DNA of 64,000 nucleotides from Phycisphaera sp. (lineage in GTDB: Bacteria > Planctomycetota > Phycisphaerae > Phycisphaerales > Zrk34), in assembly GCA_016125285.1 (NCBI GenBank), contig WGMA01000050.1, positions 1 to 64,000 on the forward strand, written 5' to 3'. Position numbers and translations under genes: made by a program. The notes beneath the pieces are model-generated. The model ran no database searches. It had not been told where the DNA came from and worked only from the letters and a program-made list of their open reading frames with translations. Positions 23,085 to 27,797 of the stretch are shown piece after piece; the first letter of the stretch is position 1; every line of letters begins with the position of its first letter.

Positions 23085-27167
<4,083 letters not shown>

Positions 27168-27225
27168 TGCTGTATCTCGATTCTGTGTGTTGGTGCGTTT
27201 GTGCTGTTGAGCGATTGCCTGCAAG

Positions 27226-27325
27226 CCCCGGGCTGCGACACGGCGTGTCGACGACCGGGGATGTGTCCGAGGCGCGCCGTGTGGATCGATCCCCACGCGT
27301 CGATGCGTTGCATCGCAGCGTGGGG
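27226..27325 (-). promoter_or_regulatory. Two strong hairpins in the secA leader
   Basis: Hairpin 1 (27291-27325) has an 8-bp stem CCCCACGC/GCGTGGGG, a 2x2 internal loop and a 6-bp stem CGATGC/GCATCG with loop GTT. Hairpin 2 (27226-27260) has CCCCGG/CCGGGG enclosing CGACAC/GTGTCG. Both lie between the stop of the small exported protein (27384) and the secA start (27167). Hairpin 2 is about 60 nt from the ATG. I see no strong Shine-Dalgarno directly before secA. Confidence 0.65.
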
Positions 27326-27383
27326 CTTACGGGCGCGCATACGCAACGTGATCACGCGGCGCGGGCCACGCGGTCCGTGCGCT

Positions 27384-27755
27384 TCAGCACACCGGCGGGG
27401 GCAGGTTCAACAGGTGCGGCAGGGCGTGGAGCTGCGGAATCGCAAAGCCCTGCGGTACAGGCGCGGCGACGGCGACACGCAGCGGCGTGACGTCGGCCGG
27501 GTAAGACACGTGTGACACGATGGACGGCTGCGACCCCGCCCACTGCCGGGCGGCCTCGCTGACGCAACGCACCAGCGGCGCGAACGCGTCGTCCCGCTGC
27601 TGACTGAGCAGCGACGACTCCCGCGCCGGCGACGCCAACCCGGTCGCGCCCGCCGAAACGGTCACCGCCAGCGTCAGCGGCATCGTCACCGCCAGCGCCG
27701 TCAGAGCCGCGGGCAGAGCGTGCCGCGTCCGGGATGTACGGGTCTCTCGTTCCAT
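27384..27755 (-). CDS. Small exported protein upstream of secA, candidate secretion monitor
   Basis: 123 residues from the ATG at 27755. The N-terminus is basic (MERETRTSRTRH), followed by a long hydrophobic core ALPAALTALAVTMPLTLAV and an Ala/Gly/Ser-rich cleavage region, so it is a Sec substrate. The mature part has no recognisable domain. It ends in a Pro-rich tail FAIPQLHALPHLLNLPPPVC, where the Pro-Pro-Pro is two codons before the end of the protein. It lies 216 bp upstream of secA on the same strand. Position, size, signal peptide and stall-prone C-terminus together resemble SecM of gamma-proteobacteria, though no SecM arrest motif is present. That role is inference. An ordinary exported protein is the alternative. 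Confidence 0.65.
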   Translation of the reverse strand: MERETRTSRTRHALPAALTALAVTMPLTLAVTVSAGATGLASPARESSLLSQQRDDAFAPLVRCVSEAARQWAGSQPSIVSHVSYPADVTPLRVAVAAPVPQGFAIPQLHALPHLLNLPPPVC

Positions 27756-27767
27756 CGTGAATAGTAT

Positions 27768-27797
27768 AGTATCGCCGAAACCGGGGTGAAGGTTCAA
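27768..27797 (-). promoter_or_regulatory. Putative promoter of the small exported protein / secA unit
   Basis: Minus-strand TTGAAC (27797-27792), an 18-nt spacer and GATACT (27773-27768), followed by a second -10-like TATACT. The start codon follows within about 15 nt, so the transcript would have a very short leader. Confidence 0.4.

Follow-up and report, generated by a model that had tools for sequence, protein, structure and literature searches.

A candidate LPPP-type secretion monitor encoded upstream of secA in a planctomycete, and a candidate second arrest tail in another planctomycete order

INTRODUCTION

Fujiwara et al. (2024) screened more than 30,000 genomes for uORFs of secA, secDF and yidC (PMC10987492), and defined the uA_LPPP family as secA uORFs that carry LPPP within their last 15 residues and occur in the orders Phycisphaerales, UBA1161 and WQYP01 of the Planctomycetota (PMC10987492). 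The published set comprises 52 sequences, 45 of them with LPPP. On B. subtilis ribosomes a uA_LPPP homologue gave an arrested fraction of 1 in vitro and a TAI of 22.4 in vivo; on E. coli ribosomes the arrested fraction was 0.51 and the in vivo TAI, at 1.59, was weak (PMC10987492). Mutation of Leu110 or Pro111 lowered the arrested fraction, and when the homologue stalls, the P site holds the third LPPP codon (PMC10987492). In the literature searched, we did not find the name uA_LPPP outside that paper.

Two other described systems resemble the uORF analysed here. SecM of E. coli is likewise a small exported protein encoded before secA, and its C-terminal arrest would be a further shared property; in contrast to SecM, the window uORF has no RAGP arrest motif in its tail (ALPHLLNLPPPVC), no sequence similarity between the two was found, and unmasking of the secA ribosome-binding site is unsupported by folding (see below). 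ApdA/ApdP and the RAPP-like (RQH) peptides have Pro-Pro near the C-terminus and, like the tested LPPP homologue, stall when residue 3 of the tetrapeptide occupies the P site; here, however, Leu replaces Arg, Gln or His (L-P-P-P versus R-A-P-P), and the RQH pattern [RQH]-[AGD]-[PGS]-[PG] is absent from the window uORF tail.

RESULTS AND DISCUSSION

A uORF of uA_LPPP type precedes secA

The window, by which we mean the whole 64,000-nt stretch of DNA analysed, carries on its minus strand a small ORF followed by secA:

27384..27755, minus strand: uORF (P0001), candidate arrest peptide of 123 aa, uA_LPPP family; in same-family genomes, homologues that share its tail adjoin secA upstream
27648..27755, minus strand: N-terminal signal-peptide-like segment, about residues 1-36, recognized from sequence and hydropathy (basic n-region, hydrophobic core, ...VSAGA)
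27393..27404, minus strand: L118-P119-P120-P121, predicted arrest motif from tail conservation (LPPP at residues 118-121 of 123)
23085..27167, minus strand: secA, the presumed regulated gene; 1360 aa, above the cut-offs of the NCBIfam SecA equivalogs NF009538 and TIGR00963

The uORF runs from an ATG to a TGA stop (window 27755..27384), and its protein, MERETRTSRTRHALPAALTALAVTMPLTLAVTVSAGATG...LHALPHLLNLPPPVC, has the C-terminus ...LPHLLNLPPPVC (LLNLPPPVC-stop), in which two codons, V and C, follow PPP. By analogy with the tested homologue, the P-site codon is predicted to be that of Pro120 (27396-27398), with a spacer of about 84 residues between residue 36 and Pro120. The earlier note had described a small ORF with a signal-like N-terminus on the same strand upstream of secA, ending two codons after Pro-Pro-Pro, and both points are confirmed; the interval that it gave, 27226-27797, is approximate only, the uORF itself occupying 27384-27755, while the rest of the description is accurate. 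The named secA loci closest to that of the window belong to MAGs labelled Planctomycetota, Phycisphaerales and Phycisphaeraceae. Two more SecA_DEAD proteins besides the window SecA were noted (L001, G000:C70:2299-3462, and L003, G000:C34:58469-59569), with open frames of 692 and 629 aa.

Pfam and NCBIfam searches with the window uORF matched no family. The uORF shares with uA_LPPP a same-strand position before secA in a planctomycete, an N-terminal signal(-like) segment, LPPP within the last 15 residues, a variable N-terminal body and a spacer of more than 30 residues; since every feature of that family that sequence allows one to check was found, we file it as a uA_LPPP member. It had been claimed that the tail holds no known arrest motif, which is wrong, arrest by this type of tail having been demonstrated in 2024 for one homologue (PMC10987492). 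Nor is a new kind of planctomycete monitor supported, as LPPP before secA in Planctomycetota was already described (PMC10987492), and a false claim of novelty for the window uORF is thus removed. The proposal of a SecM-like secretion monitor before secA was right in kind, the C-terminus being kept and the body variable in relatives.

The tail is conserved across the sampled order

Same-family genomes from two other genera have ORFs adjoining secA upstream with weakly similar bodies and the same end (...RPALIDLPPPLR and ...LPTLIDLPPPSC), and further tails came from a profile search across the order, among them LIDLPPPTDVM, SLCDLPPPMDF, LIDLPPPHFG, LMDLPPPAGC and LLNLPPPAATI. The order was sampled as secA-upstream DNA at 130 places (30 obtained as loci of the secA search and 100 retrieved) together with 11 loci from the profile search, the places being drawn from the SecA matches listed, which do not extend to the order's most divergent SecA lineages (e.g. 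family f5). A same-strand ORF ending xPPPx(0-8)-stop lies 40-420 nt before secA at 131 of the 133 distinct order loci sampled (those with at least 300 nt upstream), and at 117/133 the end is LPPP; the exceptions are L054 (IPPP, with a longer tail) and L060 (LSPP). Among control ORFs, taken as the remaining ORFs of 60 aa or longer from the same loci (n=1413), an xPPP end was found in 14/1413 and an LPPP end in 1/1413. The uORF tail is far beyond chance. Whereas the published family comprises 52 sequences, uA_LPPP becomes, in the sampled part of the order, a near-universal feature of secA, to which the window locus, known from sequence alone, belongs. Neither LPPP nor GGLYGP was found among the upstream ORFs listed for 30 SecA-matching loci in 27 genomes from elsewhere in the class or phylum.

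Residue statistics were taken over 139 distinct members (the order loci plus the named loci). Leu stands directly before PPP in 124/139, position -2 is Asn or Asp in 95/139 and position -4 is Leu in 84/139, which gives the extended tail L-[LI]-[ND]-L-P-P-P; beyond about -8 the 139 tails show no appreciable conservation. In the same set every one of the three Pro positions uses all four CCN codons and Leu is encoded by several codons, and the LPPP-type uORFs use all three stop codons. Considering that Pro codons and stops vary in this way, we conclude that selection acts on the peptide and not on the DNA. Conversely, the uORF bodies are hardly more alike than shuffled sequences (median identity 0.324 vs 0.295), so that comparison of relatives, as the earlier note had proposed, does show a conserved C-terminus behind a variable body. 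An N-terminal hydrophobic segment was detected by hydropathy in 137/139 members, a count somewhat inflated by the fact that uORF starts were picked partly by hydropathy; the control ORFs had such a segment in 21% of cases. A median of 85 residues separates the hydrophobic core from the P-site Pro in the family. Variant tails occur in L240, L250 and L175 (RLPQPPPAA, ARPPPAAGAEVRA) and might be drifting arrest motifs.

Promoter layout and proposed mechanism

A promoter-like site lies just before the uORF:

27763..27790, minus strand: TTCACC, 16 nt, TATACT; ends 7 nt before the uORF start, with a -10 element that recurs in the family

A [GT]ATAnT -10 element is present 6-13 nt before the uORF start at 63/137 loci, against 1.8 expected from shuffles, and is accompanied by a TTGA -35 element in 16 of those 63; at the same distance before secA, no -10 element was found in the loci surveyed. 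SD-like 4-mers precede secA in 45% of cases and the uORF in 7%. Given this placement of the -10 element and the rarity of SD-like sequences before the uORF, the mRNA on which the uORF is translated is probably nearly leaderless and probably carries secA as well.

Taking together what was observed directly, namely gene order, peptide-level conservation of the tail, a hypervariable body, a signal-like N-terminus, the spacer length and the promoter position, we consider that the window ORF very probably encodes a nascent-chain secretion monitor of the uA_LPPP family; that the window peptide itself arrests, is released by export and induces secA is what we infer. The uORF would be translated from an mRNA whose promoter ends almost at the uORF start codon, and its signal-like N-terminus may engage the Sec machinery while the L-[LI]-[ND]-L-P-P-P tail would halt the ribosome once Pro120 occupies the P site and Pro121 the A site. 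As long as export proceeds, pull on the nascent chain should relieve the stall within a short time; under limiting export the ribosome would stay on the uORF and more of the co-transcribed SecA would be made. Sensing weak export in order to raise SecA is the most likely purpose of arrest at this tail. The extended tail, the peptide-level selection and the nearly leaderless promoter layout are additions to what is described for uA_LPPP, and the regulation is testable in cultured Phycisphaerae.

The gap and unmasking of the secA start

Between the uORF and the secA ATG at 27167 lies a gap of 216 nt (27168-27383), exactly the size stated in the earlier note and above the median of 141 for the family. 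It holds one marked structure:

about 27217-27334, minus strand: long imperfect hairpin with GC-rich arms in the uORF-secA gap, a 118-nt imperfect palindrome (z = -2.8 or -3.3)

The gap is thus strongly structured. We found no T run of terminator type and no intrinsic terminator in the gap, and an Rfam search of the region returned only sub-threshold chance matches. That the palindrome is a dispersed repeat was considered and ruled out, as it is single-copy in the genome save for a 27-nt partial match.

Such a hairpin in the window gap invites a more specific version of the monitor reading, and one that does not exclude it, in which the secA ribosome-binding site is concealed by an RNA hairpin and the stalled ribosome opens that hairpin directly, as in SecM. 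This step was modelled at 138 loci by masking the place of a stalled ribosome in silico and computing how accessible the secA start region is: the mean unpaired probability was 0.478 for free RNA, 0.482 with the ribosome stalled and 0.484 with the ribosome at a control position, with no significant difference. Across the loci, the folds of the gaps are on average just slightly better than those of shuffles (mean z -1.06). Predicted folding at the 138 loci thus lends no support to the opening of the ribosome-binding site by a stalled ribosome that the earlier note had envisaged, and we regard this version as unlikely. Rho access, mRNA stability or re-initiation may instead link arrest to SecA output.

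Readings other than export sensing

A translated leader could instead pause at PPP in an EF-P-dependent manner and sense the supply of EF-P or of proline-tRNA, not export. PPP is a classic EF-P substrate, PF01132 (the EF-P OB domain) has two matches in the genome, and efp precedes secA in one sister-family genome at least, with four further probable cases. The conservation of Leu before PPP, and of the [ND] and [LI] positions as well, speaks against a response to PPP as such, as do the near-constant presence of a signal-like segment in the family and the arrest of translation by the tested homologue in living B. subtilis (PMC10987492); we therefore give this reading very little credence. The EF-P matches bear on the secretion-monitor reading too: they could relieve PPP pauses, which counts against arrest, and with two PF01132 matches present arrest at the uORF would need to be resistant to EF-P or tuned by it. 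Also counted against a monitor are the weak in vivo stall of the tested homologue on E. coli ribosomes (TAI 1.59), the unchanged accessibility of the secA start when a stalled ribosome was masked in silico, and a window gap above the family median. As an observation in its own right, an efp-like gene adjoins secA upstream in sister families within the class, confirmed by Pfam in L326 (423-983); those in L328, L330, L334 and L336 were judged by C-terminal sequence alone.

That the uORF encodes an ordinary small exported protein which by chance lies before secA and has a Pro-rich tail, an alternative allowed for in the earlier note and consistent with the signal-like N-terminus and the lack of any annotated family, is highly improbable, since conservation is confined to the last few residues and body identity is close to random, where a functional exported protein would show the opposite, and since the place beside secA is nearly invariant in the sampled order.

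A second tail in another planctomycete order

At four non-LPPP planctomycete secA loci (L092, L093, L098 and L099) the upstream ORFs end in [IT]GGL[YH]GP-stop, and in each of those four genomes the DNA pattern occurs once, at secA. By the published criteria, and as judged from sequence, the ORFs ending in GGL[YH]GP-stop are strong candidates for another type of secA arrest peptide in planctomycetes, and their tail offers ribosome biochemistry a candidate new arrest sequence. On balance we lean towards the view that Sec export in Planctomycetota is monitored by two or more unrelated arrest peptides encoded before secA: the LPPP type already described, which is all but obligatory in the order of the window, and an apparently undescribed R-[ILV]-G-G-L-[YH]-G-P-stop type in another order. 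This second type, with hypervariable signal-bearing bodies, would stall the ribosome at termination or immediately before it. A description of the GGL[YH]GP motif in an arrest context was not found in the literature, where the search covered publications other than the supplements of PMC10987492, and a Pfam search with three representative ORFs gave no family.

In the order to which these four loci belong, the pattern matches with TAG in 34 of the 114 genomes and with TAA or TGA in 18. Among the genomes/loci retrieved, 46 have a GGL[YH]GP-stop ORF 65-250 nt upstream of secA, with TAG as the stop in 30, TAA in 8 and TGA in 8:

L092, L093, L098, L099, L270-L292, L294-L309, L311-L313, L315-L317, L319, upstream of secA: GGL[YH]GP loci

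Elsewhere in the phylum, GGLYGP-stop gave 17 matches in 392 other genomes, none beside a detected secA, and these were taken as chance.

Among the ORFs of this second type, 37/39 full-length members have a hydrophobic N-terminal segment, the identity of the bodies is 0.33 vs 0.31 for shuffled sequences, and the motif shows synonymous codon variation among loci. The invariance of GGL[YH]GP is not independent evidence, as the search pattern set the last six residues; at position -8, which lies outside that pattern, Arg is present in 28/42 of the ORFs.
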